Of a DNA stretch of 64,000 nt, positions 3,969 to 20,863 are shown in pieces. The translations under genes and the position numbers were made by a program. Position 1 is the first letter of the stretch; each line of letters opens with the position of its first letter. The notes below the pieces were generated by a model. That model was not told the origin of the DNA, searched no databases, and saw only the letters and a program-made list of their open reading frames with translations. Location of the stretch: the NCBI RefSeq assembly GCF_036030735.1, contig NZ_CP107928.1, positions 5,022,001-5,086,000 on the forward strand, read 5' to 3'. Source of the stretch: Streptomyces sp. NBC_00425 (GTDB lineage: Bacteria > Actinomycetota > Actinomycetes > Streptomycetales > Streptomycetaceae).

Positions 3969-4967
3969 TCATTTCAGCCAGCCCTTCTCGAGCGCGATGA
4001 GCGCCGCCTCCACCCGGTTGGCGGCGCCGAGGCGGCGCATGATGACCGCCAGGTGCTTGCGGTAGGTGCGCACGGACACGCCGAGGCGCCGCGCCGCCGT
4101 CTCGTCCTTGTCGGCTTCTCTGAGCATGACGAGGATCTCGCGCTCGATGTCGGACGGCAGGTCCGTGTCCTCACCGGGGAGTTCCTCCGCGGCGGCCCAC
4201 ATGCGCTCGAAGAGGGTGACCAGGGTGGCCACCAGGCCGGGCTCGCGCACGAGCAGCGCACCCACGGAGGTGTGGGCCGGGTCGATGGGGGTCAGCGCGG
4301 CCGACCGGTCGACGATGATCACCCGCTCGATCGGGTGGTGGGAGATCCGCACCTCGGCTCCGTGCGAGACCAGGTCACGCATGTAGGTGAGCGTGGTCTC
4401 GTGCTGCAGGATCGCCGACCCCATGATCATGCGCATACGCACGCCACGGCGCAGCAACCGCATGTTGATCGGGTGCGACACGGCGATCGACTCCTCGGTG
4501 AGGCGGCCCATAGGCTCCGTGGTCAGGTCCTCGGTCCGGGCGAAGAAGGTCAGTTCGTCGATGGCCTCCCGGACCGCCTCGATCCCGTGCAGTTGCGTGA
4601 TCATCCGGCTGTGGTCGTCCGTGTCGGCGCGGGGTGAGGGAGCGGCCGTCAAGCGCTCCCGGAACAGGGACTCGATGACCGCGTGCCGGGTCGCCTCGCT
4701 CTCCAGGTCCTCCCGCAGACGGCGCAGGCGGCCGTCGATCAGGGCGTCCACGGCCCGGGGCGGCGGGACCGGGCGTATCGCACCGTGGGTGTTGCGGGTG
4801 GCGAGCCCCAGCGCCACCAGCCTGTCCAGGGCCGACTGCTCGGACGGCGTGGCCTCGTCCTCACCGGGCTCCCGGGAGCCGGACGCGGACGAGTCGCGAC
4901 GCAGCAGAGCGCGGTACAACCGCTCCTCTTCGTCGTTCACGCCTAGGAATGCGAGCAGATTGCCCAT
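3969..4967 (-). CDS. LuxR-type HTH regulator with TrmB-like N-terminus (MpaR-type)
   Basis: A 332-residue regulator. The N-terminal part (to about residue 120) resembles a TrmB-like helical segment, the middle a sensor-like alpha/beta region, and the last 60 residues a LuxR-type helix-turn-helix (TAARRLGVSVRTYRKHLAVIMRRL). Proteins of this build are common beside actinobacterial RiPP clusters, and a LuxR regulator belongs to the described daptide locus. It is divergent from the first cluster gene, and an inverted repeat in the shared intergenic region is a candidate operator. Control of the cluster is inferred from position only. Confidence 0.75.
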   Translation of the reverse strand: MGNLLAFLGVNDEEERLYRALLRRDSSASGSREPGEDEATPSEQSALDRLVALGLATRNTHGAIRPVPPPRAVDALIDGRLRRLREDLESEATRHAVIESLFRERLTAAPSPRADTDDHSRMITQLHGIEAVREAIDELTFFARTEDLTTEPMGRLTEESIAVSHPINMRLLRRGVRMRMIMGSAILQHETTLTYMRDLVSHGAEVRISHHPIERVIIVDRSAALTPIDPAHTSVGALLVREPGLVATLVTLFERMWAAAEELPGEDTDLPSDIEREILVMLREADKDETAARRLGVSVRTYRKHLAVIMRRLGAANRVEAALIALEKGWLK

Positions 4968-5035
4968 GTTTTTCCCCCTGTTTGATGATCGATCACACCG
5001 CGGTCCCTGGAATCCTGAGACGCCTGTACTCGACT

Positions 5036-5052
5036 GTCAACGACGGGTTGAC
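5036..5052. promoter_or_regulatory. Candidate operator (inverted repeat) in divergent region
   Basis: GTCAAC-5 bases-GTTGAC is a perfect 6-bp dyad in the 300-base divergent region between the regulator and the first cluster gene. A 10-bp palindrome TGATCGATCA lies at 4986-4995, just upstream of the regulator start. Either could be the regulator's binding site. No convincing -35/-10 pair was seen. The rest of the gap holds nothing I recognise. Confidence 0.35.
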
Positions 5053-5267
5053 GTCATACGTCCCCCTGGTTGCGGATCGGATGCGGGCTCGTGTCGGGGG
5101 TGGGCCCGGCGGGGCGGGAGAGCGCTGCAGCTTGAGGAATCCGCGGGTGCAGCAAGCTGCGCGCAGATGGCCTCGTGGCGGCCCCCGCCAGACGGCAGAG
5201 TCGTTCTCGCAAGGAAGCACGAACACCGCAGAACGAACGCCGCATCGAGCATCCGAGGAGACATCCT

Positions 5268-5564
5268 GTGAACCGTTCCACGTCCCGTAGCGCGCTGTCG
5301 TCCCGTCGCCGTGGACACGTCGTCGTCGGTCTGCTGACCGCCGTGACGATCGCCCTCGCCGGCCAGGGAACGGCCGCCGCCGCCGAACAGCCGGCGCAGA
5401 GCCGGACGGCGACGGAGACCGTGGCGGCGCACGGGACCGGGAACGGGACGGGTAACGGGGCGGCGCCCGCCGCCGGGCTCGGCCCCCTCGGGTGGCTCCA
5501 CGTCCTCGGCGGTCTGCTGCCCGACGGAGTGACGCTGCCGAAGAACAACAACGACTGGCAGTAG
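5268..5564 (+). CDS. Small secreted peptide of unknown function at head of RiPP cluster
   Basis: A 98-residue protein from the GTG at 5268, which has GAGGAG 8-10 bases upstream. Residues 1-38 form a clear signal peptide: an Arg-rich start, then VVVGLLTAVTIALAGQGTAAAA. The mature part has a low-complexity HGTGNGTGNGAAP stretch and a hydrophobic, Trp-containing tail (GWLHVLGGLLPDGVTLP, then KNNNDWQ). It has no Cys. It is followed 58 bases later by the LLM oxidoreductase gene in the same direction. I do not recognise a family. It could be an accessory secreted factor, an immunity peptide or a second small product. Confidence 0.6.
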   Translation: MNRSTSRSALSSRRRGHVVVGLLTAVTIALAGQGTAAAAEQPAQSRTATETVAAHGTGNGTGNGAAPAAGLGPLGWLHVLGGLLPDGVTLPKNNNDWQ

Positions 5565-5622
5565 CCCGCTACCGCGATCGCGGCCGGCCCGACCCGACGA
5601 CGACCGAGGAGAACCCGAAGCC

Positions 5623-6603
5623 ATGACCGACTACTCCGTGCTCCTCCCCTGCGTCCCCCGCCGTCTGGAGCAGGCACTCCCCTTCGCCGGACTCGTCCGG
5701 TGGACCGGGGCGAGCCGCCTCTGGCAGGGACAGGCGATGGTGATGGAGCCTCATCAGACCTTCACCGGTCTGGCCGGGGCCGGGTTCCGGGTCCCGACCG
5801 GCTTCGGCGTCACGCTGATGCCCCTGCGCCACCCGTACGAGGCGGCCCTGCAGGCGCGGTCCGTGGCGCTGGCCACCGGGGAACCGGTGATCGCGGGCTT
5901 CGGTCCCGGATCGACGGCCTTCCAGGAGAACATCCTCGGGGCCCCGTACGAGAAACCGCTCCAGGTGGCACGGCAGTACGTGACGGCGGTGCGCCGCCTG
6001 CTCGACGGCGAGACGGTCGTCATGGACGGTCCGCAGCTGACCTTCCGGGGGCAGCTGGCCCCCGTCGCGGCGCCCCGGGTCGACGTGGGTCTGGGAGTGC
6101 TGCGGCCGGCGATGGCGAGGCTGGCGGGCGAGGTGGCCGACGTGGTGATCACCTGGCTGACGCCGCCCGGGTATCTGCGGGACGTCATCCTGCCCGCGGT
6201 GGCCGAGGGCGCCGAACGCGCGGGGCGGACGTCATTGCCCCGGGTCGTCGCCATGGTCCCGACGGGACTGGAGAAGGAGGGGCGGGAGGGCGCCGGGCCC
6301 GCGCGGCTGGCGCTGGCCGGCAACGCGGCGCACATGCAGGCCCCGCACTACCGGGACATGCTCGGCCGGGCGGGAGTCGACGTGGGCTCCGGGCGGCTCG
6401 AGGACGTGGCGCGCGGTGTCGTGGAGACCGGCGCGTTCGCGGGCGGCGATCTGCCGCAGGTGGTCAAGGCGCTCCGGGTCTACGAAGACGTGGGAGTGGA
6501 CGAGATCGTCCTGAACACCACCGCCGTGTGCAAGCTCTTCGGCGCCCAGGAGTCGCTCGCGGACCTGTCGGCGATCCTGCGGTCCGTCGCGTCACCGCAC
6601 TGA
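5623..6603 (+). CDS. LLM class oxidoreductase in RiPP cluster (possible dehydroamino acid reductase)
   Basis: A 326-residue luciferase-like protein; GFGVTLMPLRHPYEAALQA, EPVIAGFGPGS and the C-terminal GVDEIVLN are typical of the LLM/F420 group. It is only distantly similar to the LLM protein at 2974-3876. F420H2-dependent LLM enzymes of the LanJC type reduce dehydroalanine to D-Ala in some lanthipeptides. Its position beside a LanKC acting on Cys-free, Ser-rich cores makes that role attractive, but it is an inference. An unrelated oxidation is the alternative. It lies in the same direction as, and upstream of, the MpaC-type gene. Confidence 0.75.
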   Translation: MTDYSVLLPCVPRRLEQALPFAGLVRWTGASRLWQGQAMVMEPHQTFTGLAGAGFRVPTGFGVTLMPLRHPYEAALQARSVALATGEPVIAGFGPGSTAFQENILGAPYEKPLQVARQYVTAVRRLLDGETVVMDGPQLTFRGQLAPVAAPRVDVGLGVLRPAMARLAGEVADVVITWLTPPGYLRDVILPAVAEGAERAGRTSLPRVVAMVPTGLEKEGREGAGPARLALAGNAAHMQAPHYRDMLGRAGVDVGSGRLEDVARGVVETGAFAGGDLPQVVKALRVYEDVGVDEIVLNTTAVCKLFGAQESLADLSAILRSVASPH

Positions 6604-6808: not shown

Positions 6809-7843
6809 ATGGACATGACCATTCGTGGGCGTCTGAAGCAGCACCTCATCTCCTGGGCCACCGCCTCCCCGCTCGCCGGACCCCCCGGCGCGGGCGTCGG
6901 CACGCTCGTCCTGGCCGACGCGGCGCACCTCCCCGCCGTCACGGCCGCCGGACTCGTCGGCCCCCGCACCCTCCTCCTGGCACCCGACGACGGCACCCGC
7001 GACCTCGCCCCCGCCGTCGGCTACCAGGGCAGCCTCACGGAGCCCGGCGACGAGTTCTCCAACGGCCAGGACTTCTTCCTGCAGACCCACGCCTACGCCG
7101 CCAGCCCCTTCATGACCGTCTTCGGGCCGACCGTCGTCCGCGTCTTCGACCGACACGACTTCGAGGTCTTCCTCGCCGACGCCGACCGGGCGCTCGCCGA
7201 GGGCGTCTTCCCCGAGTTCCTCCTCACCTCCTCGGTGCTGCTGGCCGACCCGGCCGCCCTGAGCGGTGCTGACGACCCGGCCGACGGACCGGCCCTGCGT
7301 CTGTACGCCGACCGCAACGGGCAGGTGTCCACCAGCCCGACGGGAGCGGTGCTCGGCACTGTCGACGACAGCCTCGACGCCCTCGCCGAGAGCTTCGCCC
7401 GAGCCGGGAACGCCGCCGCCGCACTCGACGCGGCACTGCCGGCGCAGACCCGGGCCGAAGCCCTGCACGGCCGCCCCTTCCTGGGCCGGTACCTCGCGGC
7501 GGTCGCCGCACTGCGCAGCCTCATGGCACGCGGAGCCACCGGCCTGAAGGTCTCCGGGTTCGGCTCCCGGCTGACGCCCGGGCTCGCCGTCTTTGGCGAC
7601 GACCTGGCGGACCCCTCGCTGCCGATCGTGCTGTACGGGGACGAGGACTCCTACGTCGTGGCCGGCAGCCGGCTGTTCGCCGTCGACCGGCGGGCCGCCC
7701 GGACCCTGGAGTGCCTGCTCGCCACCTCCGGAGCGGCGGGCGACCGCGTCCCCGCCCACCACGTGGACCAGCTGGCCGAACTGCTCGCCTCGCACGGCCT
7801 GGCGCTGCCCGTACCGCTGCGCGTCCCGGCGGTCACGCGATGA
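6809..7843 (+). CDS. mpaC: Daptide RiPP recognition protein (MpaC-type)
   Basis: A 344-residue protein identified mainly by position and overall pattern: it stands first in an MpaC-M-D-B-A run. The last 75 residues (IVLYGDEDSYVVAGSRLF, then VDRRAARTLECLLA and a helix ending LASHGLALPVP) look like the three-strand, three-helix winged fold of a RiPP recognition element. The N-terminal 270 residues match nothing I know outside this family. It is proposed to bind the leader and present the C-terminal Thr to the dehydrogenase. The ATG at 6809 is preceded by AAAGGAA. It overlaps the methyltransferase gene by 4 bases (ATGA). Confidence 0.7.
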   Translation: MDMTIRGRLKQHLISWATASPLAGPPGAGVGTLVLADAAHLPAVTAAGLVGPRTLLLAPDDGTRDLAPAVGYQGSLTEPGDEFSNGQDFFLQTHAYAASPFMTVFGPTVVRVFDRHDFEVFLADADRALAEGVFPEFLLTSSVLLADPAALSGADDPADGPALRLYADRNGQVSTSPTGAVLGTVDDSLDALAESFARAGNAAAALDAALPAQTRAEALHGRPFLGRYLAAVAALRSLMARGATGLKVSGFGSRLTPGLAVFGDDLADPSLPIVLYGDEDSYVVAGSRLFAVDRRAARTLECLLATSGAAGDRVPAHHVDQLAELLASHGLALPVPLRVPAVTR

Positions 7844-8700
7844 GCGCCCCGGCCATGCCCCTCACGACGACCGCAGCGACCACGACAGCGGAAGCGGCCA
7901 CGACGACCGAAGGGGGCGTCCTCGCCGCCCGCCGGAAGGCGGAGCTCGGCGGCAGGGCCCGCGTCTGCGGCCTGTACGACGCCCTCGGCGCGCCGGTCTA
8001 CCACGACCTCGCCACCTACGACGACCCGGAGACCCGGGCCCTGCTGACCGCCGTGCGGACGACGCCCGGCCCTCTGCTCGACCTCGCGGCCGGCTCCGGA
8101 CGGTTCACCCTGCCGCTGCTCGCCACCGGCCGGGAGGTCACCGCCCTCGACCTGTCCACCGACATGCTGGCGCTGCTGAGGACCCAGCTGGACAGGGCCC
8201 CGGCGTCGATGCGGGCCCGCTGCACCGTGGTGCAGGGCGACATGTCCCGGTTCGCCCTCGGGCGGACCTTCCCGCACATCCTGCTCGGCACCACCTCGCT
8301 CTCGCTCCTGGACGAGGACGGACGGGCGGGTCTGTACCGCAGCGTCCTGGCACACCTCGCCGAAGGCGGCCGGTTCCTGCTGACCGTCCTGGAACGGGGC
8401 GACGCGGACGGCCCCGACGAGACGGTCGTCCGGGCCACCGGGGCCGGCGGCACCGTCTACGAGCTGTACGAGCACTGGCCGGCCGGCGCCGACAGCCGCA
8501 CCGTCACCCTGTTCCCCGCCGACCCGCCGCAGGACGACAGCCCCGTCATCGTCTGCACGGACCGCGTGGCCGTCCTCGACCTGCCCCGCCTGGAGGAGGA
8601 ACTCGCCGCGTCCGGCCTGACGGTCACCTCCCGCCGGCTCCTCTCGCCGCCCGACGAGCGTCACCGCGTGACACTCCTGACCACGGAAGCCTCCCGATGA
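7840..8700 (+). CDS. mpaM: Daptide N-methyltransferase (MpaM-type, SAM-dependent class I)
   Basis: A 286-residue class I methyltransferase. SAM-binding motif I is LLDLAAGSGRFTLPL, followed by the acidic VTALDLSTDML and CTVVQGDMSRF. In daptides this enzyme dimethylates the new C-terminal amine. The first 30 residues are a Thr/Ala-rich, probably disordered tail. The start overlaps the stop of the MpaC-type gene and the stop overlaps the aminotransferase start, so the three genes are translationally coupled. Confidence 0.85.
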   Translation: MSAPAMPLTTTAATTTAEAATTTEGGVLAARRKAELGGRARVCGLYDALGAPVYHDLATYDDPETRALLTAVRTTPGPLLDLAAGSGRFTLPLLATGREVTALDLSTDMLALLRTQLDRAPASMRARCTVVQGDMSRFALGRTFPHILLGTTSLSLLDEDGRAGLYRSVLAHLAEGGRFLLTVLERGDADGPDETVVRATGAGGTVYELYEHWPAGADSRTVTLFPADPPQDDSPVIVCTDRVAVLDLPRLEEELAASGLTVTSRRLLSPPDERHRVTLLTTEASR

Positions 8701-9962
8701 CCGCGCTCTGGCCCTACCTCATACCGCCCTCCAGTCACGGCGACGACAGCCTCTGCGCCGTCGGCGCGGCCGGCCACCGCGTCACCTTCGCGGACGGCAG
8801 CACCGCCCTCGACGCCGACAGCGGACTGTGGAACGTGAACCTCGGCTACGGCAACGCGGCGATCGCCGGGGCCGTCGCCGAAGCCGCCGCACACGCCTCC
8901 TACCTCGGGGCCTTCCGCTTCGAGAACAGCTACGCCCGCCGCGCCGCCGAGGACCTGCTGCGGGTCTGCGGGCCCGACCACTACGCCCGGGTGCTCTTCT
9001 CCACCGGCGGCGGCGTCGCCAACGACGCGGTCATGAAACTGGCGCGGATCTACCACGCCGTACAGGGCAGGCCCGGACGGAATCTGGTGGTCGCCCTGCG
9101 GGGCAGCTTCCACGGACTGACCTTCGGCGGCTTCGCCCTGACCGGGGAGGACCTCGGGCAGCGGGTCTACGGAGTGGACCAGCGGCTGATCCGCCACGTC
9201 ACCCCGAACGACACCGCCGAACTGGGCCGGCTGATGACCGCCCTCGGCGGCCAGGTCGCCGCAGTGGTGGTGGAACCCGTCGTCGGCACCGGGACCGTCC
9301 CGCTCGACGAGTCGTTCGTGGCCGAACTGGGCCGGCTGCGCGACGAGCACGGCTTCCTCCTGGTCGCCGACGAGGTGGCCACCGGCTTCGGCCGCACCGG
9401 AAGCTACTTCGCCTCCGAGAGCTGGCCCGGCCTGCCCGACGTGCTCGTCACGTCCAAGGGCCTGACCAACGGGGCCTGCCCCGCCGCCGCCCTGGTGATG
9501 TCCCACCGGGTGACCCGGGCCCTCGTCGAGCACGACACGGTGTTCGCCCACGCCGAGACCCAGGGCGCGACGGCACTCGCCTGCGCCGCGATCAGCGCCA
9601 CCATCGCCGAGATGGAGCGCCTCGACGCGGTGAACGCCGGCCGCGACGTCGCCGCCTGGCTCCAGCAGGGTCTGGCGGAACTGGTCGAGCGGCATCCGCT
9701 CGCCACGCACGCCACCGGCGTCGGCTGCTTCCGCACCCTGCACCTGACGCACCCCGACGGCCGCGCCCTGGCCGGAACGGACGTCGCCGACCTCATCACC
9801 CGGATCCGGCACGCGGGCGCCCTCGTCCACCCCGGTCCCTCCGGCATCCAGCTCGTGCCCTCCCTGACGTACAGCCGTGACGAGGTCGCCGAGCTCATGA
9901 CCTGTGTCGAGGAGGGCCTCGACAGCCTGCTGCCGGCGACCGCCCTGGCCGCGAGGAGCTGA
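8697..9962 (+). CDS. mpaD: Daptide aminotransferase (MpaD-type, class III PLP)
   Basis: A 421-residue class III (omega) aminotransferase. PLP-binding features are all present: STGGGVAND near residue 102, LLVADEVATGFGRTG with the cofactor Asp at 225, and the Schiff-base lysine K254 in VTSKGLTNG. In the daptide pathway it turns the C-terminal ketone, left after oxidative decarboxylation of Thr, into an amine. It overlaps mpaM by 4 bases and is 4 bases from the dehydrogenase gene. Confidence 0.9.
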   Translation: MTALWPYLIPPSSHGDDSLCAVGAAGHRVTFADGSTALDADSGLWNVNLGYGNAAIAGAVAEAAAHASYLGAFRFENSYARRAAEDLLRVCGPDHYARVLFSTGGGVANDAVMKLARIYHAVQGRPGRNLVVALRGSFHGLTFGGFALTGEDLGQRVYGVDQRLIRHVTPNDTAELGRLMTALGGQVAAVVVEPVVGTGTVPLDESFVAELGRLRDEHGFLLVADEVATGFGRTGSYFASESWPGLPDVLVTSKGLTNGACPAAALVMSHRVTRALVEHDTVFAHAETQGATALACAAISATIAEMERLDAVNAGRDVAAWLQQGLAELVERHPLATHATGVGCFRTLHLTHPDGRALAGTDVADLITRIRHAGALVHPGPSGIQLVPSLTYSRDEVAELMTCVEEGLDSLLPATALAARS

Positions 9963-9966: not shown

Positions 9967-11166
9967 ATGCCCGTCTCTCTCGACGCCTACGACCGGATTC
10001 CCGGACTGCTGCGGGAACTGCGCCCCACCGGCGTGACCGTCCTGGCCGACCCGGCCGTGGCCGACCACGCCGTCACCCGGAACGTCACCGCCGAGATCGT
10101 CCGCGCCGGGTTCACGCCCACCGTCGCGGTCACCCCGGCGGACGGCGGGATGCGGGCCGTGGAGGCCCACGCCTCCCGGTTCTCGCCCGGTGAGCTGGTC
10201 GTCGGCGTCGGCGGGGGCAGCACCCTCGACTTCGCGAAGCTCTCGGCCGCCGTCGGCCGCCGTCCCGGACTCCTGCGCTACCTGACCTCCGCACAGCGCA
10301 GCGGCCTCGTGGCGCTCCCGCTCACGGCGGGAGAGCACGCCGAGGTCCTCGCGGTCCCCACCACCCTGGGCACCGGCAGCGAGGCGGGACCCGTGGCCTG
10401 CTTCCCGCACGAGGACGGCAAACGCATCGCGATGGGGGAGTGCCTGCGCCCCCGTGCCGCCCTCCGGGTGCCCGAGGCCACCGAGACCCTCCCGGGGCCG
10501 CTCGTCCTGGACGGCGTCCTCGAAGCGGTCTTCAGGACCGTCATCCCGTACAGCAGCGACACCCTCGACCTTCCGGAACAGGACGCCGCCGTGGAGGAGT
10601 TGGCGGGAGAACTGCTGACGGCCGGCGACGAACTGGCCCGGCACCTCGCCGCCGGCCGGCCGGCCCCCGCGCCGGAGCGGCTGCGGGTCGCCCGGCTCAG
10701 CGCCGAGAGTCAGCGCGGAGCCATCAACGTCGGACGCAGCCCCTACGCGGTGAAGTGCTGGGCCCTCGCCAACGAGCTCTCCACCACGCTGGGACTGGCC
10801 AAGATGCGCGCGGTCGCCGCCCTGTGGCCGGTCGTGTGGCGGCAGGCCCTGCGGGGGGACACCCGCTTCGGCAGCGCCGACCGCGTCCACCGCCTGTGGG
10901 AGCGCCTGGGGCAGCGGGCCCCGTGGCTCGCGCCACGGCCCGACGACGGCCTCGAACAGCTGATGCACCGCTGGCGGATCGACCGCACCGTGCACCTCGC
11001 CCCGCACCTGCGCCACCACGTCGCCCTGCGCAGTGTGCGCGCCTGGGGCGCCGGACTTCCCACCCTCGCCGGGTTGAGCGCCGACGACGTCGTCGCGCTC
11101 CTCGCCGAGGCCACCGAGCCGAGCGCCTTCCCGGCCGGCTCCCCCGAACCCCTCCCGGCGGCCTGA
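9967..11166 (+). CDS. mpaB: Daptide dehydrogenase / oxidative decarboxylase (MpaB-type)
   Basis: A 399-residue member of the iron-containing alcohol dehydrogenase / dehydroquinate synthase-like superfamily. The nucleotide-binding motif VGVGGGSTLDFAK is at residues 79-91 and TTLGTGSEAG follows near 140. In daptides this protein oxidises the C-terminal Thr side chain, which then decarboxylates to an amino ketone. The usual Fe-ADH metal ligands are not conserved: the D-x3-H motif reads DGVLE, and the later His-rich helix reads NELSTTLGLAKMRAV without His. Either the metal site differs or the enzyme works without iron. ATG at 9967, just after mpaD. Confidence 0.8.
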   Translation: MPVSLDAYDRIPGLLRELRPTGVTVLADPAVADHAVTRNVTAEIVRAGFTPTVAVTPADGGMRAVEAHASRFSPGELVVGVGGGSTLDFAKLSAAVGRRPGLLRYLTSAQRSGLVALPLTAGEHAEVLAVPTTLGTGSEAGPVACFPHEDGKRIAMGECLRPRAALRVPEATETLPGPLVLDGVLEAVFRTVIPYSSDTLDLPEQDAAVEELAGELLTAGDELARHLAAGRPAPAPERLRVARLSAESQRGAINVGRSPYAVKCWALANELSTTLGLAKMRAVAALWPVVWRQALRGDTRFGSADRVHRLWERLGQRAPWLAPRPDDGLEQLMHRWRIDRTVHLAPHLRHHVALRSVRAWGAGLPTLAGLSADDVVALLAEATEPSAFPAGSPEPLPAA

Positions 11167-11256: not shown

Positions 11257-11412
11257 ATGACGAAGCACACGCTGGTCGAGCAGGAGCTGCAGGAGCTCGG
11301 CACCGAGCTGGAGATGCAGGAGCTGGAGGCCGTGCAGGCCCCGGGCTGGGCCACCAGCGTCGGCGTCAGCGTCGGCATCTCGATCGTCTCCGTCGCCTGG
11401 AGCCTCACCTGA
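11257..11412 (+). CDS. mpaA1: Daptide precursor peptide 1
   Basis: A 51-residue precursor with AAGGAG 6-11 bases before its ATG. The leader carries TELEMQELEAVQAPGW; the core is Val/Ser/Gly/Ile-rich and ends in AWSLT. The final residue is Thr, as required for daptide C-terminal remodelling. It has no Cys. It is the most divergent of the four precursors at the N-terminus and the only one with Trp near the C-terminus. Confidence 0.88.
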   Translation: MTKHTLVEQELQELGTELEMQELEAVQAPGWATSVGVSVGISIVSVAWSLT

Positions 11413-11581: not shown

Positions 11582-11740
11582 ATGAGCGAGAACCCGGGCA
11601 CCGTCGAGAGCTTCGACAACGCCGACCTGGTCGAGCTGGAGATGCAGGAGCTGGAGGCGCTGGAGGCCCCGGGCTGGGGCACCATCAGCGCCGTCTTCTC
11701 CGCCGGTGTCTCGGTCGGTGTCTCGATCACGCTGACCTGA
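11582..11740 (+). CDS. mpaA2: Daptide precursor peptide 2
   Basis: A 52-residue precursor: acidic leader with LVELEMQELEALEAPGW, then a Ser/Val/Gly-rich core ending in SVGVSITLT. It has no Cys. It is nearly identical to precursor 3, differing at three positions, all in the core. GAGAG lies upstream of the ATG. The leader motif LEMQELE resembles the L-x-[LM]-Q-x-L-E motif used by class III lanthionine synthetases. Confidence 0.9.
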   Translation: MSENPGTVESFDNADLVELEMQELEALEAPGWGTISAVFSAGVSVGVSITLT

Positions 11741-12057: not shown

Positions 12058-12210
12058 ATGGCTGAGAACCTGGGCGCCATCGAGAACGCCGAGCTCGTCG
12101 AGCTGGAGATGCAGGAGCTCGAGACCCTCGAGGCCCCCGGCTTCTGGACCGGCGTCTCCATCGGCACCGCCATCAGCGCCTCCGTCGCCACCTCGATCAC
12201 CCTCACCTGA
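12058..12210 (+). CDS. mpaA4: Daptide precursor peptide 4
   Basis: A 50-residue precursor with leader ELVELEMQELETLEAPGFW and a core that is richer in Thr and Ala, ending in SVATSITLT. GAGAGGA lies upstream of the ATG. It has no Cys. The invariant TLT end is shared with precursors 2 and 3. Confidence 0.9.
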   Translation: MAENLGAIENAELVELEMQELETLEAPGFWTGVSIGTAISASVATSITLT

Positions 12211-12396: not shown

Positions 12397-14037
12397 GTGA
12401 GCGCTGTCACGAGCCCCCCGCCACCCACCGTCCCGGCCCACACGAGGCACCCCCGCCTCGCCCCGAGCGCCGAGGTCCACTCGCCCGCCGACGGACAGGG
12501 CGACTGGGTTCTCCAGCACGGCGCCCGCTACGTACGGATCACCGAACACGTCGCGGATCTCGTCCAGGAGCTGGACGGGGAGCGCGACCACGCGACCCTC
12601 GCCGCACGGCTGGGCGGAGCCTGGAGCACCGAGCGGGTGGGCAGCGCGATCTCGCGGCTCGACTCCCTCAGACTGCTCGACGACGGCGAGACCAAGGCGC
12701 CCGCCGTCGCCCCCCGATTCCAGATCGTCCCCCCGATGACCCTCCAGCTCACGCTGCTGCGGCCGGGACGCACGATGCAGGCCCTGCGCCCCGTGTTCGC
12801 CCGCCTCTTCTCCCGGGGGGCGGTGGCGGCCGGGATGCTCTGCGTCCTGCTCGGCGCCGGCGCTCTGATCGCGCAGCGCGACGCCGTCGCGGTCACGCTG
12901 AACAGCCCGCTCTCCGCGGTCTCGTTCACCGGAGTGCTCGTCGCGCTGCTGCTCGGCGTCTCCCTCCACGAGCTGGGTCACGCCGCCGTCCTCATCCGCT
13001 ACGGGGGCCGGCCCTCGCGCATCGGCGTCATGCTCTTCTACCTGATGCCGGCGTTCTTCTGCGACGTCTCGGACGCCTGGCGCCTCCCCGACCGCCGGCA
13101 GCGGGTGCACACCGCGCTCGCCGGGCCCGCGGTCCAGACCTCCCTGGCGGCCGCCTCGGCCCTCGCCGCCTGGCCCCTCGCGGACGGCACCGCCAAGACC
13201 TGCCTGCTGTTCTTCGCCGTCACCAGCTACGGAACGGCCCTGCTCAACCTGACGCCGTTCATCAAACTCGACGGCTACATCGCGCTGATGAGCCACGTGG
13301 ACGTTCCGTACCTGCGCGACCGCGCCATGGCCGACGCTCGCCGCGCCCTCGCCCGCTTCCTGTTCGGCGGCACGTACCAGCGCGAACTGCCCACCCGCTG
13401 GACCGTCGTGTACGGCTTCGCCTGCCTCGCCTTCCCGGTGTACTTCCTGAGCACCGCCCTGCAGACCTGGCTCGGCACCCTCCAGCGGGTCGGCTGGGTC
13501 GGACTCCTCCTGGCCGCCTCCGGGCTCTCGTACATCGTGTGGATGCTGGTCCGCGGCGCCCTTCGGCTCTCCGCCGAGGTCAAGGCCGCCGGAGTCCGCC
13601 GGGCCCGGGCCGGGGCCGTCTGCGGCGCGCTGGCCGCCGCCGTCTGCGCCGCGCTGTTCCTGCCCGTGCAGCAGACGGTGGCCGCCGCCTACGTCACCGA
13701 CGCCTCCGGCACCCGGCTCGTCCTGCCGCAGGGCTCGTCGGCCGAACTGATCCACGCCGGGCAGCGCGTGACGCTGAAGACGAACGGCCTGGTGCTGCAG
13801 GACGACGTCGCGACCGCCCGGGTGGGAGCCGCTCCGGCCGCGCAGACCGAGGTTCCGGTCTCCACCTACTTCCCCGTGGACCTCGGAAGCGCCGTGGGCA
13901 TGGACTCGACGGCCTTCTCCCTGGACCTCGACCGCACCCCGACGCCGGCCACCGGCACCGCCGAGGTCGAGCTGGGCAGCGTGCCCCTGTGGAAGTCCCT
14001 CCACCGCACCTACGTGCTCCCGTTCCTGCCCTTCTGA
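12397..14037 (+). CDS. mpaP: Daptide intramembrane metalloprotease (MpaP-type, M50) with PqqD-like N-terminus
   Basis: A 546-residue membrane protein. Residues 35-97 (GDWVLQHGARYVRITEHVAD, then LDGERDHATLAARL) look like a PqqD-like RiPP recognition fold. A site-2 protease core follows with HELGH (H191, E192, H195) and NLTPFIKLDGY (Asp292), each in a membrane helix. A C-terminal extracytoplasmic barrel-like region holds LPQGSSAELIHAGQRVTLKTN. It probably removes the leader at the membrane. I chose the GTG at 12397 (AAAGGAA upstream) over the ATG at 12289, which lies before the hairpin. Confidence 0.85.
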   Translation: MSAVTSPPPPTVPAHTRHPRLAPSAEVHSPADGQGDWVLQHGARYVRITEHVADLVQELDGERDHATLAARLGGAWSTERVGSAISRLDSLRLLDDGETKAPAVAPRFQIVPPMTLQLTLLRPGRTMQALRPVFARLFSRGAVAAGMLCVLLGAGALIAQRDAVAVTLNSPLSAVSFTGVLVALLLGVSLHELGHAAVLIRYGGRPSRIGVMLFYLMPAFFCDVSDAWRLPDRRQRVHTALAGPAVQTSLAAASALAAWPLADGTAKTCLLFFAVTSYGTALLNLTPFIKLDGYIALMSHVDVPYLRDRAMADARRALARFLFGGTYQRELPTRWTVVYGFACLAFPVYFLSTALQTWLGTLQRVGWVGLLLAASGLSYIVWMLVRGALRLSAEVKAAGVRRARAGAVCGALAAAVCAALFLPVQQTVAAAYVTDASGTRLVLPQGSSAELIHAGQRVTLKTNGLVLQDDVATARVGAAPAAQTEVPVSTYFPVDLGSAVGMDSTAFSLDLDRTPTPATGTAEVELGSVPLWKSLHRTYVLPFLPF

Positions 14038-14050: not shown

Positions 14051-16561
14051 GTGCTCGACACCCGGTTCATCAACTTCTGCCGCGCGGACTCGCTCTTCTA
14101 CGACGCCCCCGCCGCCGAATCCACCGGCGCGGACTTCCACGAGGGCCGGACCCTGCCCGAGGGCTGGACCGCCACTCGAGGACGGGAGTGGACCGTCTGC
14201 GTCCCGCCGGACTCCCGGATCCCCGACCAGGGCTGGAAGATCCACGTCGCGGCCTCCCCCGACAACGCGGCCGAACTCCTCGACGCGGTCGTCCCGTACT
14301 GCGTCGAGCACGGGCTGATGTTCAAGTACATCTCCGACCTGGAGACGCTCGGCCGGCGCGGCAGCAAGTACGGGGACCGCACCGCCAGCGGGAAGTTCAT
14401 CACCGTCTACCCGGTCGACGAGACGGCTCTGCGCACCGCCCTCGACGACCTCGACGGCCTCGTCGGAGGGACGCCCGCACCCTCCGTGCTGAGCGATCTC
14501 CGTTGGAAGCAGGGGCCGTTGTACGTGCGTTACGGTGGCTTCGTGCTGAAGACCACCCGCCTCAAGGATGGCACCCTGGCACCCGCGATCACCGCGCCGA
14601 ACGGCGAACTCGTCCCCGACGAGCGGCGCCCCGGCTTCCGTCCCCCCGCCTGGGTCACCCTCCCCTCCTTCCTCCAGGAGGCGGCCGACGAGCGGCGCCG
14701 CGGCACCCTCACCGACTTCCCCTTCCGCGTCTACAAGGCCCTCCACTTCTCCAACGGAGGCGGCGTCTACCGCGCCGTCGACAAGCGCGACGGAACCGAG
14801 GTCCTGCTCAAGGAGGCCCGTCCGCTCGCCGGTCTCGACGCGGCCGGCGACGACGCCGTCACCCGCCTCGAGCGCGAGCACTGGGCGCTGTCCCGGCTCT
14901 CCGGTCTGCCGTCCGTGCCCACCCTGAGGGACGTGCGCAAGGGGAACGAACACCTCTTCCTCGCCCGCGACTACGTCGACGGCACTCCGCTCACGGAGCT
15001 CGTCCGCCTGCGGCACCCCTTCGGCACCACCGACAACACGGCGCGGGCCCGCGCGGAGTACACGGCCTGGACGCTGCACATCCTGGACCAGGTCGCCGAG
15101 GGCGTGGCCGCCATGCACGAGCGCGGTGTGGTCTTCGGCGACCTGCACCCGGGCAACGTCCTCGTCCGCCCCGACGACACCGTCGCCTTCATCGACATGG
15201 AGACCGCCACCCCCGCCGAGGAGATGCGCGCGCAGGCCATGGGCTCCCTCGGCTTCCGGGCCCCCGACCACCTCCGGGGTCCCGACGTCGACCTGTTCGC
15301 GCTCGACGTGCTCCGGCTGACCATGTTCGTCCCCATGCCGCACGTCGTGCCGTGGGGCACCGAGAAGATCCGCACCCTGATCGACGTGGCCGCCCGTGAC
15401 TTCCCCCTTCCCGAGTCCTTCGTCCGGCAGATCGAGCGCGGTCTCGGCGACGACGTCCTGGGCGCGCGGACGGAGTACGGCGTGCGCTGGCCCGCCGCCG
15501 GGGAGGAGACCGGGAGCCTGATCGCGGACATCGCCGGCTCCATCGTCGAGGCGGCCACCCCCGAGCGGACCGACCGTCTCTACCCGGGCGACGTCTCGCA
15601 GTTCATGGTCGACGACGGCGGCGTGACCTTCGCGTACGGGGCGGCGGGTGTCCTCTGGGCGCTGCACCGCGCCGGCGCCGAGCCGCCCGCCGAACACGTC
15701 CAGTGGTTCCTCGACCGGTCCGAGCGGGTCGCCGGCGACGGCCCCGGCTTCCTCACCGGCCTCGCCGGCGTCGCGTACACCCTGGAGGAGCTCGGTCGTC
15801 CCGACGCCGCCGACGCGGTCATGGACCGGGCCTTCGCCGGTTGCGACGCCAACGTGGGGTCCACCCTGGCGACCGGCCTCTCCGGCCTCGGTCTGACCGC
15901 GCTGCACCTGTCCGTCCGGCGCGGTGACGACCGGCGCCTGCGCCAGGCGCTCGAACTCGCCGAGCGGCTGCCCGACACCCCGGCGCCCCAGCGCGTGGGA
16001 CTGCTGCACGGTCGCTGCGGCCGCGCTCTCCTCCTGCTGCGCCTGTACGAACACACCGGCCGCACCGACCTGTTGGAGCGGGCCCTGGCCGAACTCCACG
16101 CCGAACTGGAGCGCATCGGCGGCGACGACTTCGACGACCGCTTCCTCAGCGCCGGACTCGAAGGCTCCGCGGGCATCCTGATCGCCCTGCGCGCCGCACT
16201 GCGGCACACCCCCGACGACATACGGATACGTGCCGCCGTGGACCGGCTGCGGACCTTGCGGCGCGGCGGCTTCGCCACCTCGTGCGGCCTTCTGCACGGC
16301 CGCGGCGGTGAGCTCCTCGCCCTCGCGGACGGTGGCAGCGAGATCGAGCGGGACGTCCTGCGCTTCCACCTGGACGCCCTCGGCTGGGAGGCGATAGCCG
16401 CCGAGCCCGGACGCGTCGACTTCCTCGGCAACTACGGCTACCGCCTCTCCACCGACCTGGGCACCGGTTCGGCGGGAGTCCTGCTGGCCCTCGCCGCCCT
16501 GCGCGACGGCGCCCCGGCCCTGTCCTTCCTCGCCCCCTCGGCCGCCGGGGCGCGACGGTGA
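14051..16561 (+). CDS. Class III lanthionine synthetase (LanKC)
   Basis: An 836-residue three-domain enzyme of normal length. Residues 1-220 form the phospho-Ser/Thr lyase domain (YISDLETLGRRGSKYGDR). Residues 225-500 are the kinase: Gly-rich NGGGVYRAVD, ATP lysine K254, catalytic FGDLHPGN with D364, and FIDMETA with D382. From about 510 there is a LanC-like domain with GLLHGRCG and CGLLHGRGG but without the zinc-binding Cys and Cys-His, which is the class III pattern. It should phosphorylate and eliminate Ser/Thr. The four precursors have no Cys, so ring closure on them is not possible. GTG start at 14051; it overlaps the YcaO gene by 4 bases. Confidence 0.9.
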   Translation: MLDTRFINFCRADSLFYDAPAAESTGADFHEGRTLPEGWTATRGREWTVCVPPDSRIPDQGWKIHVAASPDNAAELLDAVVPYCVEHGLMFKYISDLETLGRRGSKYGDRTASGKFITVYPVDETALRTALDDLDGLVGGTPAPSVLSDLRWKQGPLYVRYGGFVLKTTRLKDGTLAPAITAPNGELVPDERRPGFRPPAWVTLPSFLQEAADERRRGTLTDFPFRVYKALHFSNGGGVYRAVDKRDGTEVLLKEARPLAGLDAAGDDAVTRLEREHWALSRLSGLPSVPTLRDVRKGNEHLFLARDYVDGTPLTELVRLRHPFGTTDNTARARAEYTAWTLHILDQVAEGVAAMHERGVVFGDLHPGNVLVRPDDTVAFIDMETATPAEEMRAQAMGSLGFRAPDHLRGPDVDLFALDVLRLTMFVPMPHVVPWGTEKIRTLIDVAARDFPLPESFVRQIERGLGDDVLGARTEYGVRWPAAGEETGSLIADIAGSIVEAATPERTDRLYPGDVSQFMVDDGGVTFAYGAAGVLWALHRAGAEPPAEHVQWFLDRSERVAGDGPGFLTGLAGVAYTLEELGRPDAADAVMDRAFAGCDANVGSTLATGLSGLGLTALHLSVRRGDDRRLRQALELAERLPDTPAPQRVGLLHGRCGRALLLLRLYEHTGRTDLLERALAELHAELERIGGDDFDDRFLSAGLEGSAGILIALRAALRHTPDDIRIRAAVDRLRTLRRGGFATSCGLLHGRGGELLALADGGSEIERDVLRFHLDALGWEAIAAEPGRVDFLGNYGYRLSTDLGTGSAGVLLALAALRDGAPALSFLAPSAAGARR

Positions 16562-17961
16562 TCGACATCCCGACCACCCTCGACCCGGCCTCGGGCATCG
16601 CCCTGAGGTACGCGGTCACCCCGCCGCACGACGGCGATCCGCTGTGGAGCAGCGCGGTCGAACTCCAGCCGGTGGACGGGTTCGAGGCGATCGTCGGCTC
16701 CCTCGCTTCCGCAGCTTCCGTGGGAGCGGCGGGCTCCGTGGGAGCGGGGGGCGCCGGGGGCGTTCGTCCGGGCGCCACCGCTGCGACCCGCTCCGCCACG
16801 GCCACGGCCACGGCCACGGCCCCCGCCGGGCCGGACGCCGGCGTCTGCGACCTCCCGCTGTCCGCCCGGTTCGCCGGGGCCAGCGGCGCCTCCCGGGTCG
16901 ACGCGCTGCTGCGCGGAGCGGGCGAGGCCGTCGAGCGGCGCGCCCTGCACCCCTCGGCCGCGCACCCCGCCCGCTTCGGCAACGCCGCCGGCCTGGCCGC
17001 CACGACGCTGTACGCGCACCACCCGGACCACGCCCTGTCGCACCCGGACGCCGAGACGGCCGACCTGTACTGGTACGAGGCCCGGGACCTGGACACCGGC
17101 GCGCCCGTCCTGGTCCCCGCGGACCTCGTCGACTGGCCGGCGCGTCGGGCCGACCTGTTCGATCCGAGCCCGTCCGGGGCGGCGGCCGGCGCGAGCCACC
17201 AGACCGCTCTCGCCGCGGCGATGATCGAGGTGACGGAACGGGACGCCCTCACCGTCGCCTGGGGCCGCCGCTTGCGTCTGCCGACGTACGTCCCGTCGCC
17301 CGCCGACACCGGGCTCTCGGCGATGTGGCGGCGGGCGCGCGAGGAGGGGCTGACCCCCGTCCTCGCCCGGATTCCCACGGCAGTGCCCGGACTCTGGTGC
17401 ATGACCGGCTTCCTGATCGATCCGGAGGGACCGGGCGCCCTGGCCGCCGTCGGCATGAAGGCGTCGACGCGGCCGGCCGAGGCCGCCGTCAAGGCGTTCC
17501 AGGAGGCGTGGCAGGTACGGGCCGCGCTGCGGGCGCTGCGCGGCCAGGGCGAGACCGGGCGCCTCGCCCCGATCGTGACGGAGCACGACCGGCTCCGCCA
17601 CATGCTCACCGGCACCGCGTACGAGAGCGTGCGCGACTGGGTCGCGGGCTTCCGGGAGCCGGAACCGTTGCCGGCTCCCCCGCCCGCGCGTGACCTGGAG
17701 GCGGAGGACATCCGGCGGGCCCTCACCGCCGACGGAGCGGGTCTCCTCGCCGTGGACCTCACGCCGCGCCTCCCGTCGGCGGTCGCCGCCATGGGCTGGC
17801 ATGTCGTCAAGGTGCTGGCGCCCGGCTACCAGGGCCTGCGGATGGACGAGACGCACCTGTGGAGCTGGCACCTGCCCCGACTGGAGTCCGCGCCCGAGCG
17901 CACCGGCTGCGCCGCCGGGCTGGACGACCCATGCGAAGCGGCCCCGCACCCGCTGCCCTGA
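16558..17961 (+). CDS. YcaO-family protein with C-terminal PxPxP
   Basis: A 467-residue YcaO-domain protein. ATP-binding motifs are visible: GAGEAVERR (E123, E126) and AAAMIEVTERDALTVAW (E224, E227). The last five residues are PHPLP, the PxPxP tail seen in azoline-forming YcaOs. YcaO enzymes activate a backbone amide with ATP to form azolines, amidines or thioamides. No ThiF/E1-like partner, TfuA or azoline dehydrogenase is encoded nearby. An Ala/Gly/Thr-rich insert fills residues 50-95. The GTG start overlaps the LanKC stop, so the two are coupled. Confidence 0.85.
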   Translation: MIDIPTTLDPASGIALRYAVTPPHDGDPLWSSAVELQPVDGFEAIVGSLASAASVGAAGSVGAGGAGGVRPGATAATRSATATATATAPAGPDAGVCDLPLSARFAGASGASRVDALLRGAGEAVERRALHPSAAHPARFGNAAGLAATTLYAHHPDHALSHPDAETADLYWYEARDLDTGAPVLVPADLVDWPARRADLFDPSPSGAAAGASHQTALAAAMIEVTERDALTVAWGRRLRLPTYVPSPADTGLSAMWRRAREEGLTPVLARIPTAVPGLWCMTGFLIDPEGPGALAAVGMKASTRPAEAAVKAFQEAWQVRAALRALRGQGETGRLAPIVTEHDRLRHMLTGTAYESVRDWVAGFREPEPLPAPPPARDLEAEDIRRALTADGAGLLAVDLTPRLPSAVAAMGWHVVKVLAPGYQGLRMDETHLWSWHLPRLESAPERTGCAAGLDDPCEAAPHPLP

Positions 17962-18034: not shown

Positions 18035-18919
18035 ATGTTGGAACTGGAAGAACTCGTACGAGACTTCGGCGATCACCGTGCCGTCGACCGGGTCTCCTTC
18101 CGGGTGTCCAGAGGCCGGTTGACCGGATTCGTCGGCGGGAACGGCGCGGGCAAGACCACCACCATGCGCATGATCATGGGCGTACTGGCTGCGAACGGCG
18201 GCGAGATCCGCTGGGACGGCGTTCCCGTCACGGCCGCCGACCGCAGGGACTTCGGCTACATGCCGGAGGAGCGGGGTCTCTACCCGAAGCAGACGGTTCT
18301 CAGCCAGCTCGTCTATCTGGCCCGGCTCCGAGGCCAGGGCGCCGCCGACGCCCGCGGCCACATCCTCGAACTGCTCGACCGTCTCGGTCTCGCGGAGAAG
18401 AGCCAGGCCCGGCTGGAGTCCCTGTCCCTGGGTAACCAGCAGCGTGTGCAGATCGCGGCCGCCCTGCTCGGCTCCCCCAAGCTGCTCGTCCTCGACGAGC
18501 CCTTCTCCGGGCTGGACCCGCACGCCGTCGACACGATGGCCGAGCTGCTGCGCGAGTACGCGGCCGCGGGCACCCCGGTGCTTTTCTCCTCCCACCAGCT
18601 CGACCTGGTCGAGCGGCTCTGCGACGACCTGGTGATCATGGCCACCGGTCATGTCGTCGGCAAGGGCACCGCCGACGAGCTCCGGCACCGCGACAAGCTC
18701 CGGTACCACCTGGTCACCGGTGCGCCGGCCGGCTGGGCCCGCGACGTCCGCGGTGTGACCGACGTCGAGGAACTGCCCGACGGAGCACACGTCGAGCTCG
18801 CCGCCGACGCCGATCCCGGCGCGCTCCTGACGGAGGCCCTGCGCCGCGGACCCGTGCATGCCTTCACCCCTGTCGTTCCCAGCATCGCCGACGTCTACCG
18901 GGAGATGACCTCCGCATGA
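18035..18919 (+). CDS. ABC transporter ATP-binding protein (RiPP export)
   Basis: A 294-residue NatA/CcmA-like ATPase: Walker A GGNGAGKTTT, signature LSLGNQQRVQIA, Walker B LLVLDEPFSGLDP, and the switch His in SSHQLD. It overlaps the permease gene by 4 bases. By position it powers export of the modified peptide or self-protection, matching the transporter genes of known daptide loci. Confidence 0.88.
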   Translation: MLELEELVRDFGDHRAVDRVSFRVSRGRLTGFVGGNGAGKTTTMRMIMGVLAANGGEIRWDGVPVTAADRRDFGYMPEERGLYPKQTVLSQLVYLARLRGQGAADARGHILELLDRLGLAEKSQARLESLSLGNQQRVQIAAALLGSPKLLVLDEPFSGLDPHAVDTMAELLREYAAAGTPVLFSSHQLDLVERLCDDLVIMATGHVVGKGTADELRHRDKLRYHLVTGAPAGWARDVRGVTDVEELPDGAHVELAADADPGALLTEALRRGPVHAFTPVVPSIADVYREMTSA

Positions 18920-20178
18920 GCACCGTGACCTCGAACCCCGCGCACCGGTCCGAGACGTCGCCCGATCCGCAGGGCACGCCCGCGGCTTCCGGTACCCCGC
19001 CCCGTACGGCCACCGCGGCCGCCTGGCGGATCGTCGCCGCCCGCGAGATCTCGGTGAAGCTCACCAACCGCGGCTTCCTGCTGTCGACACTGGTCACCCT
19101 CGCCCTGATCGTGGGCGCGATCGGACTGCAGCTCTACCTGGCGGACTCGATGGGGAAGATCACCGTCGCGGTGGCCGACCAGCAGGCCGGCCGGATCGCC
19201 GCCCAGGCCGAGCAACTGGCCGTGCGGGCGGACCAGGACGTCGAGATCACGGTCCGGCAGAAGTCGTCCGCCGATCAGGTCCGCGAGGCCGTGCGGTCCG
19301 GCGACGCCGAGGCCGGGCTCCTGCTCGAGGGCGGTCGCTGGGTCCTGTTGGGTGACACCGGGCAGAACGACATCGCCGCCACCTGGATCGGTGCCGCCGT
19401 GCAGTCGAAGGCCCTCGCCGAGAACGCGCAGGCCGCCGGAACCAGCCTGACGGCCCTCAGCCAGGGGGCGGAGGTCAAGCACGTCCTGCTGTCGGCCGAC
19501 AAGACGCCCGAGGGCGCGGTCCGGATGACGACTTACTTCTTCGGCTTCCTCTTCTACCTGGCCGCGGTCCTGCTCGGGGCCGCGCTGGCGACCAGCGTCG
19601 TGGAGGAGAAGCAGAACCGCATCGTGGAGCTCATCGCCTCCTCCGTGCCGCTGCGGTCGCTGCTCGTCGGCAAGATCGTCGGTTCCACGCTGCTGGCGCT
19701 CGCCCAGATGGCGTTGTTCTGCCTGGTCGGCATCGGCGGCCTGGTGGCCACGGGCGAGCAGGACTTCCTCGCCGACATCAGCTCGGGACTGGGCTGGTTC
19801 CTCGTCTTCTACGTCGTGGGCATCGCCGTCCTGGCCTGCCTGTTCGCCGCCGCGGGCGCGCTCGCCACCCGGAGCGAGGACATCCAGTCCACCACGACCC
19901 CGGTGAACGCGATCACCGCCCTGGTGTTCATCGTCGGCGTCACCGTGACCGGCAATGTGCGCGAGATCCTCTCCTTCATCCCGTTGACCTCGACCGTCAC
20001 CATGCCGGCCCGCGTCCTCGCGGGCGAGACCGCCTGGTGGGAGCCGGCCGCCGCGCTCGGTCTGTCGATCGCCGCCGCTGTGCTCATCGTCGGGGTGAGC
20101 AGCCGGGTGTACCGCCGGGCGCTCCTGCAGACCGACCGCAAGCTCTCGTTCCGCCAGGCCATGAAGCTGACGGACTGA
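18916..20178 (+). CDS. ABC-2 family permease (NatB-like)
   Basis: A 420-residue ABC-2 permease. One membrane helix lies near residue 60, followed by a large extracytoplasmic segment and a C-terminal block of about five helices (the run YFFGFLFYLAAVLLGAALAT opens it). This layout is typical of NatB/LinY-type exporters. It is the partner of the ATPase directly upstream. Confidence 0.88.
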   Translation: MSTVTSNPAHRSETSPDPQGTPAASGTPPRTATAAAWRIVAAREISVKLTNRGFLLSTLVTLALIVGAIGLQLYLADSMGKITVAVADQQAGRIAAQAEQLAVRADQDVEITVRQKSSADQVREAVRSGDAEAGLLLEGGRWVLLGDTGQNDIAATWIGAAVQSKALAENAQAAGTSLTALSQGAEVKHVLLSADKTPEGAVRMTTYFFGFLFYLAAVLLGAALATSVVEEKQNRIVELIASSVPLRSLLVGKIVGSTLLALAQMALFCLVGIGGLVATGEQDFLADISSGLGWFLVFYVVGIAVLACLFAAAGALATRSEDIQSTTTPVNAITALVFIVGVTVTGNVREILSFIPLTSTVTMPARVLAGETAWWEPAAALGLSIAAAVLIVGVSSRVYRRALLQTDRKLSFRQAMKLTD

Positions 20179-20299
20179 CCGCCCGGCGCCATCCGCGCCA
20201 CCGCCTCACCTGCGCCATCGCACCACTCGTACTACCCGCACCACTTGCTCAGTCTGCCCGTACTGCGAAACACCCCACCTCAACCGGAAGGAAACTCCG

Positions 20300-20479
20300 A
20301 TGACCGCCTCTCGTTCCCGCACCACGTTCGCCGCCCTCCTGGCCGTGCTCGCCTGTGTGGAGGTGATGCTGATCAGCAGCGACACCTCCGACGGCGTCCG
20401 TTACGGCGTCGGCGCGGCACTCGCCGTCGGGATCCTCGTGGTGGTCGGCCGGCTCGCCAAGGGCGGCTCGTCCGACTGA
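20300..20479 (+). CDS. Small two-helix membrane protein
   Basis: A 59-residue protein with GGAAGGA before the ATG. Two hydrophobic segments (FAALLAVLACVEVMLI and YGVGAALAVGILVVVG) are separated by a short Asp/Ser/Arg loop. It is the next gene after the exporter. I do not recognise a family; an immunity or transporter-accessory role is a guess from position. Confidence 0.65.
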   Translation: MTASRSRTTFAALLAVLACVEVMLISSDTSDGVRYGVGAALAVGILVVVGRLAKGGSSD

Positions 20480-20620
20480 CCGACGATGCGACTCCTCGTC
20501 CGGGGCCGGCCGTACCCAGGTGGCCGACCCCGGATCACGGTCGGCGCACGGACCCCCGGGGGTTGGGGGACGGCAGCCTGCCCCACCACCCTCCCTTCAC
20601 TTCGTCATGCGGAGCCGTCC

Positions 20621-20863
20621 ATGAGCTTCTCCCACCAGGTGTCGATCACCGGTCCGTCCGGGGCGCCACCAGAGACCGCCGTGATCCGTTTTGTGGCCCT
20701 CCTCCCGGAGGGCTGGCATGCCGAGGTCGGCGAGTTCCAGGGCGACCTCGCCCGTCTCCGGATCACGGCCCCGCCGGGAACCACCCCGTCCGAGGCCACC
20801 CGGATGGCCGCCGACATCCTGTCCCGGCCCGGTCTTCAGGGTTGGCGGCTGACCGACCACTGA
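20621..20863 (+). CDS. Small conserved-looking protein of unknown function
   Basis: An 80-residue soluble protein with GGAG 6-10 bases before the ATG. It has alternating strand and helix character (IRFVALLPEGWHAEVGEF, then TTPSEATRMAADIL) and no transmembrane segment or Cys. It may be the last gene of the RiPP cluster or an unrelated gene. I do not recognise it. Confidence 0.5.
   Translation: MSFSHQVSITGPSGAPPETAVIRFVALLPEGWHAEVGEFQGDLARLRITAPPGTTPSEATRMAADILSRPGLQGWRLTDH

Follow-up and report, generated by a model that had tools for sequence, protein, structure and literature searches.

Among daptide gene clusters, YcaO proteins and LanKC/LanJC pairs have already been reported (PMC10036551). 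The mpa cluster establishes that the core daptide chemistry alone yields complete products; in its product 1, from a cluster without a YcaO gene, an Ala precedes the C-terminal dimethylated diaminopropane (Dmp) (PMC10036551). In the product of the sca cluster of Streptomyces capuensis five Ser are converted to Ala, D-Ala was detected, and the C-terminus is again Dmp (PMC10036551). A different terminus is produced by the YcaO protein DapY, which intercepts the monomethyl amine to give a C-terminal dimethylimidazoline (Diz), a reaction shown both in vitro and in vivo (PMC12670281, PMC12338566). Here we analyse a 64,000-nucleotide stretch of contig NZ_CP107928.1 of Streptomyces sp. NBC_00425 (positions 5,022,001 to 5,086,000, hereafter the window), in which positions 3969..20863 probably, and with good confidence on our part, hold a DapKC-J-Y-type daptide cluster, which would use the LanKC-type enzyme KC and the reductase J to turn core Ser into D-Ala, and the YcaO protein Y to close a C-terminal imidazoline.

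The nearest counterpart is tfDap of Thermobifida fusca DSM 43792 (PMC12670281, PMC12338566), which is composed of DapA1-5, BCDMP, T1T2, KC, J and a PxPxP-ended Y. It comes from another genus and has five precursors versus the four found here, but its set of gene types is identical, so that the combination is not new and the initial annotation of an unprecedented hybrid has to be withdrawn (PMC12670281). For tfDap the activities of BCDMY were reconstituted, and KC and J were assigned by homology. The saDap cluster of Streptomyces azureus, source of azuritides 1-4, also has four precursors, the core enzymes and a YcaO but, unlike the present cluster, neither a lanthipeptide synthetase nor a luciferase-like (LLM) reductase (PMC12670281). 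The sca cluster likewise joins daptide enzymes to LanKC/LanJC; no mention of a YcaO was found in the available parts of PMC10036551, whereas the present cluster has Y. Published daptide products thus far combine two of the three chemistries (PMC10036551, PMC12670281), and none that carries all three turned up in our literature searches. The cluster in the window is therefore an ordinary member of the published KC-J-Y daptide type.

Gene content and predicted pathway

The cluster lies on a 9.8-Mb single contig of a soil bacterium, and its named relatives are from Streptomyces. All genes given below are on the plus strand unless otherwise stated. Each of the five NCBIfam equivalog models for daptide enzymes is matched above its cut-off: B, a daptide RRE protein and partner of the oxidative decarboxylase (6809..7843; NF041823, 361.7 bits, cut-off 150); M, the N-methyltransferase (7840..8700; NF041820, 316.1 vs 175); the aminotransferase, MpaD in PGAP naming (8697..9962; NF041821, 624.4 vs 450); the iron alcohol dehydrogenase (Fe-ADH)-like oxidative decarboxylase/dehydrogenase, MpaC in PGAP naming (9967..11166; NF041822, 478.2 vs 300); and P, an intramembrane metalloprotease of the RRE-M50 type (12397..14037; NF041824, 481.8 vs 300; PF02163). 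The RRE assignments are by family. An ABC exporter consisting of the ATPase T1 (18035..18919; PF00005) and the permease T2 (18916..20178; PF12698) belongs to the same run. This agrees with the initial annotation, as does the presence of four Thr-ending precursors, all of which exceed the NF041808 cut-off of 25 bits: A1 (11257..11412; core GWATSVGVSVGISIVSVAWSLT, ending WSLT; 31.2 bits), A2 (11582..11740; core GWGTISAVFSAGVSVGVSITLT, ending ITLT; 32.2 bits), A3 (11793..11951; core of 22 residues, ending VTLT; 32.7 bits) and A4 (12058..12210; core GFWTGVSIGTAISASVATSITLT, ending ITLT; 34.7 bits). The cores are taken to begin behind the conserved Pro, following PMC10036551, and start codons were chosen for A2 (11582, inside a longer open reading frame (ORF) from 11447), B (6809) and P (12397).

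KC (14051..16561; NF038151, 844.2 bits vs 575) is a class III LanKC, here a predicted Ser/Thr dehydratase, and Y (16558..17961; PF02624, 123.8 bits vs 25.7) is a DapY-like YcaO ending in PHPLP. The 4-base overlap between the two genes had been noticed before and is correct, KC ending at 16561 and Y starting at 16558; overlaps of the same length occur at the B-M, M-aminotransferase and T1-T2 junctions. Absent from the earlier gene list was J (5623..6603; PF00296, 76.6 bits), an LLM reductase of the DapJ/LanJC type, such as normally accompanies LanKC in these clusters. It passes no NCBIfam cut-off in the model scan of the cluster proteins and is read as a putative LanJ from its gene context: an LLM reductase beside LanKC, together with cores rich in Ser, is what marks LanKC/LanJC pairs. 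The same gene order is found in other Streptomyces, which excludes a chance assembly of the run. On plasmid NZ_CP108358.1 of Streptomyces sp. NBC_01351, where it was annotated gene by gene, and on three S. virginiae plasmids it matches the cluster of the window gene for gene from the LuxR-type regulator and the 98-aa ORF to the ABC permease; these copies are plasmid-borne, in contrast to the cluster in the window. The plasmid copies are our loci L060 and L061-L065 (NZ_CP108358.1, NZ_CP109129.1, NZ_CP108112.1, NZ_CP108150.1), and three of the cluster plasmids are circular, measure 37-44 kb and carry an integrase and ParA.

What this analysis contributes to the pathway that we propose is the genes, their motifs, their linkage and the way in which the cores vary with KC and Y; every chemical step is taken from characterised homologues. 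P and B would bind the shared, ELExQELE-like leaders through their RREs. KC would then phosphorylate core Ser, and perhaps some Thr, and eliminate the phosphate, and J would reduce the resulting dehydroalanine to D-Ala. At the other end of the peptide, B and the ADH-like enzyme would convert the C-terminal Thr to aminoacetone by oxidative decarboxylation, the aminotransferase would turn this end into diaminopropane, and M would add one methyl group. Y is expected to activate the carbonyl of the penultimate Leu, upon which the methylated amine would close the Diz ring, and peptides escaping Y would receive a second methyl and end in Dmp. A terminus of the type small-(Leu/Ile/Val)-Thr may be what steers a peptide to Y. 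Finally, P would cleave on the C-terminal side of the conserved Pro to remove the leader, and the product would be exported by T1/T2. All three enzyme sets would thus act on the same four peptides, A1-A4, and the predicted products are small membrane-seeking peptides with serines and C-terminus rebuilt.

Core residues that vary with KC and Y

For comparison, 392 genomes of the genus were searched for the daptide aminotransferase, which was found at 28 places in 26 genomes. After L031-L033 (only an aminotransferase) and L022 (a 3.5-kb contig) were dropped, 24 clusters were left, the window included, with KC in all 24, J in 23 (L021 ends at a contig end) and Y in 8. A second draw from the genus returned the same positive genomes, minus the window's own, and a scan of genome contigs for DapY gave 3 other Streptomyces loci. 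Addition of clusters from further searches produced a set of 38 with readable precursors, of which 16 have KC, J and Y, 16 have KC without Y, 5 have Y only and 1 has neither. J is present in 31/32 tabulated LanKC clusters, the exception being the truncated L021. The set contains close kin (L026/L027 with the window; L015/L019/L020 with each other), and genomes G083 and G376 contributed two clusters each. Also dropped were L073 (aminotransferase and ABC ATPase only) and L064 and L065, which nearly duplicate L063; L076, a contig without precursor, was left out of the residue counts. The aminotransferases of L031-L033 and L073 exceed the NF041821 cut-off; tblastn detected no further daptide gene at these loci (apart from the ABC ATPase in L073), and the enzymes perhaps belong to another pathway.

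The presence of KC is reflected in the composition of the cores. Averaged over the cores of each cluster, the Ser fraction ranges from 0.099 to 0.261 in the 32 clusters with KC (KC+) and from 0 to 0.043 in the 6 without (KC-), with no overlap between the two groups (Mann-Whitney p = 1.3e-4, ancestry ignored). Cys is absent from all 93 precursors encoded in these 32 KC+ clusters, which means that KC can only dehydrate and that no thioether is possible. Formation of lanthionine or labionin was accordingly rejected, and we class the cluster with the daptides, with LanKC as a tailoring enzyme, rather than with the lanthipeptides. The kinase loop of KC reads GDLHPGN; its Asp and His are kept in 38/38 tblastn rows, a count that takes in overlapping loci as well as near copies, and the LanC-like domain of the window's KC has no CHG motif. 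In L068, L069, L074, L075 and L077, which have DapY without KC or J and a gene content like that of saDap, the cores are nearly Ser-free and rich in Gly and Ala.

The presence of Y is reflected at the C-terminus. PHPLP forms the last five residues in 11/11 aligned YcaO sequences, and a YcaO in a daptide cluster with a PxPxP end is one of the marks of the DapY group. Among the distinct cores of KC+ clusters, position -3 is A/S/T in 34/35 from clusters with Y (Y+) and I/V/L in 27/27 from those without (Y-), while Ala occupies position -2 in 1/35 and 21/27, respectively; the fifth precursor of L028, which ends in VVAT, is alone among the Y+ cores in departing from the pattern at either position. 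Counted by cluster, Ala at -2 is found in 1/21 Y+ versus 16/17 Y- (Fisher p = 1.2e-8; the clusters are not independent). Among distinct cores the information on Y is 0.76 bit at -3 (shuffled mean 0.06) and 0.55 at -2; the values at -9 (0.49) and -4 (0.48) follow, a reminder of shared ancestry. The pattern was picked after inspection of the data and replaced a simpler rule, that a penultimate Leu denotes DapY, which was rejected when L007 and L012, with TT/VT endings, proved to be Y+ once the loci were extended downstream. These counts suggest small-(Leu/Ile/Val)-Thr in Y+ versus mostly bulky-Ala-Thr in Y- clusters as a candidate rule for the branch between Diz and Dmp. DapAeng, which is converted to Diz, gave a fragment assigned to Ala, Ile, Ser and a Leu-Thr terminus (PMC12338566); it may be read as ending in -Ser-Leu-Thr, which would fit the Y+ type. 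The endings of L078 (Y-; MT, AT, AT, AT) conform to the pattern, but lend it weak support, as this cluster is near kin of L015/L019. L079 of Actinomyces oris, with an annotated YcaO, ends in ALT and fits as well; a second candidate there ends in ALI without Thr. L079 (plasmid NZ_CP116225.1) is a divergent daptide cluster in which a short YcaO adjoins the aminotransferase and dehydrogenase, and no LanKC is annotated in the stretch shown.

These results can be read in other ways. KC (with J), Y, or both might serve another precursor or be idle, the daptides carrying the Dmp end only: as stated above, the core chemistry of mpa suffices for complete products (PMC10036551), and the genome itself has, at 1311547-1314114, a second LanKC locus that exceeds the cut-off and, at 211086-213587, a third one split into pieces, so that other precursors are possible in principle. 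A separate LanKC or YcaO precursor, which the initial annotation had named as an observation that would overturn a common substrate, was sought in the intergenic gaps and rejected: the gaps hold seven ORFs, of which a single one (25 aa, Arg-rich) has a ribosome site, and apart from A1-A4 no precursor-like ORF with such a site fits. The separation of KC+ from KC- clusters by core Ser, the conserved kinase-loop Asp and His and the recurrence of the 4-base KC-Y overlap in L004, L005, L006, L026, L027, L060 and L063 also make this explanation unlikely, and modification of one precursor set by all three enzyme sets, as first claimed, is probable. For Y, the initial annotation had foreseen a generic backbone modification, namely an azoline from Ser/Thr, an amidine or a thioamide. 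Y does match the azoline-type model TOMM_cyclo_SagD (TIGR03604), with a sub-threshold score of 114.3 bits (cut-off 219.25), and PxPxP ends occur in azoline makers too. The PxPxP-ended TfDapY and SaDapY, however, are imidazoline makers (PMC12670281, PMC12338566), no azoline dehydrogenase model has a match among the scanned proteins, and Y is informative mostly on core positions -3 and -2, which flank the bond to be closed. We thus regard a generic backbone change as very improbable and a C-terminal imidazoline as most likely.

It is quite possible, if a little short of an even call, that the -2/-3 pattern stems from the shared ancestry of the Y+ clusters and not from substrate choice by Y. On the aminotransferase tree Y needs only 5 changes, one clade holds 12/21 Y+ clusters, and further core positions also differ between Y+ and Y-, less strongly. 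A different picture is given by L007, L012 and L067, which are Y+ and keep the corresponding ending (Ala at -3, V/I/T at -2) amid 14 Y- clusters of one supported 17-row clade, and by the fact that the Y- ending is borne only by the fifth precursor of the Y+ L028. Several further points weigh against the assignments that we favour, which are dehydration by KC, imidazoline closure by Y and a terminal rule. KC changes once on the tree, so that the Ser contrast amounts to a single event; Y is taken for an orthologue of TfDapY and SaDapY on the strength of its family, its gene context and its PxPxP terminus; and independent pairs for Y number 2 (starred branches) or 5 (all branches), too few for a sign test, which leaves the -2/-3 rule confounded with ancestry. 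The Y-less L034 ends in VALT and one core of the Y+ L068 in IVLT, and in saDap, where Diz is found on 3/4 peptides, the authors report no obvious sequence trend among SaDapA1-4 (PMC12670281).

Regulator R, peptide S and small flanking genes

Upstream of J are two genes that the earlier list had respectively left without a specified nature and omitted. R (3969..4967, minus strand; PF00196, 27.3 bits vs 23.5) is predicted to consist of a TrmB-type winged helix, a PLD-like/TrmB ligand domain and a C-terminal LuxR (GerE) helix-turn-helix. Its AlphaFold model (pLDDT 83, pTM 0.56) retrieves TrmBL2/TrmB as the best Foldseek matches (E = 8e-12 to 5e-8), with whole-chain TM-scores of just 0.3-0.46. S (5268..5564), a 98-aa ORF with a hydrophobic, signal-peptide-like N-terminal stretch and the ending LPKNNNDWQ, reaches the cut-off of no Pfam or NCBIfam family. 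An S-like ORF stands between R and J in 12/14 daptide clusters in which both are visible (R at E = 1e-5 or better, beside J; the window and, by annotation, L078 included, L064/L065 excluded); L008 and L009 contain R but lack S. The S copy of L028 (L028:13153-13997) contains five NHDWG repeats. S is thus a candidate exported peptide with a -(N/H/D)(G/D/N)W-x end, and the repeats of L028 would resemble those of a multi-copy pheromone.

The R family is represented at 39 places in 37/159 genomes: the window's own, 29 loci and 9 outside the locus set. A small signal-like ORF bearing the motif was found within 1.5 kb at 10/29 of these loci, that is, at 3 of the 4 daptide loci (L089, L090, L093, L112) and 7/25 of the others. 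The same filter applied to 1198 kb of other, partly overlapping DNA returned 14 matches, 13 of them daptide S ORFs; as the filter was written after seeing the data, the enrichment is exploratory. Of ten neighbourhoods of 13-20 kb, the seven chosen for a match contain one each, near R, and no further one, and the remaining three are without a match. The genome has eight further R-like genes (28-35% identity), two of which are equal copies near both contig ends; by this filter they have no S-like neighbour, which counts against a general R/S rule. Outside daptide clusters, a profile of the S peptides was matched no more than in part, over its front, and these matches are presumed to be signal-peptide look-alikes.

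At L138-L145, TrmB-LuxR regulators adjoin small signal-like ORFs ending in (N/H/D)(G/D/N)W-x; judged by ORF sizes, L141, L142, L144 and L145 seem to share a conserved neighbourhood around the pair, which Pfam identifies, in L144 only, as dnaK-grpE-dnaJ-MerR. At L147 (G005:C1:2798217-2799200) an R homologue has weak matches nearby, to a YcaO at 27% identity and to the M50 protease P at 30%; this may be another RiPP (ribosomally synthesized and post-translationally modified peptide) cluster. Downstream of T2, two small ORFs, U1 (20300..20479, 59 aa; homologues in L004-L006, L023, L060, L063 and L066) and U2 (20486..20863; homologues in L005, L006, L060, L063 and L066 among others), travel with the daptide cluster by these matches.

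Significance

The mechanism of the cluster can be assigned with confidence by homology, and two leads, the terminal residues and the R/S pair, are new. Taken jointly, they form a tentative reading that we consider somewhat doubtful: (a) small-(Leu/Ile/Val)-Thr termini would be directed to DapY and Diz, and bulky-Ala-Thr termini to Dmp; (b) the exported peptide S and the cytoplasmic TrmB-LuxR regulator R would switch the cluster. R and S are candidates for a previously undescribed Streptomyces signalling pair, also found at non-daptide loci.

The value of the cluster is comparative, the KC-J-Y combination being a recurring unit in Streptomyces, and the masses of its products can be predicted precisely, which gives targets for detection. 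With every Ser turned into Ala, the calculated [M+H] values of A1, A2, A3 and A4 are 2047.22, 1996.17, 1968.14 and 2127.23 for a Diz end and 2079.25, 2028.20, 2000.17 and 2159.26 for a Dmp end; the expected shifts are -15.99 per Ser and, for Diz, -48.97 over the two terminal residues. If true, the terminal code would settle a branch point that was reported without a sequence trend, and the choice between Diz and Dmp, left open in print, becomes cheaply testable. Should the R/S pair prove functional, it would represent a novel type of cell-to-cell signalling for Streptomyces and offer a way of waking silent clusters.

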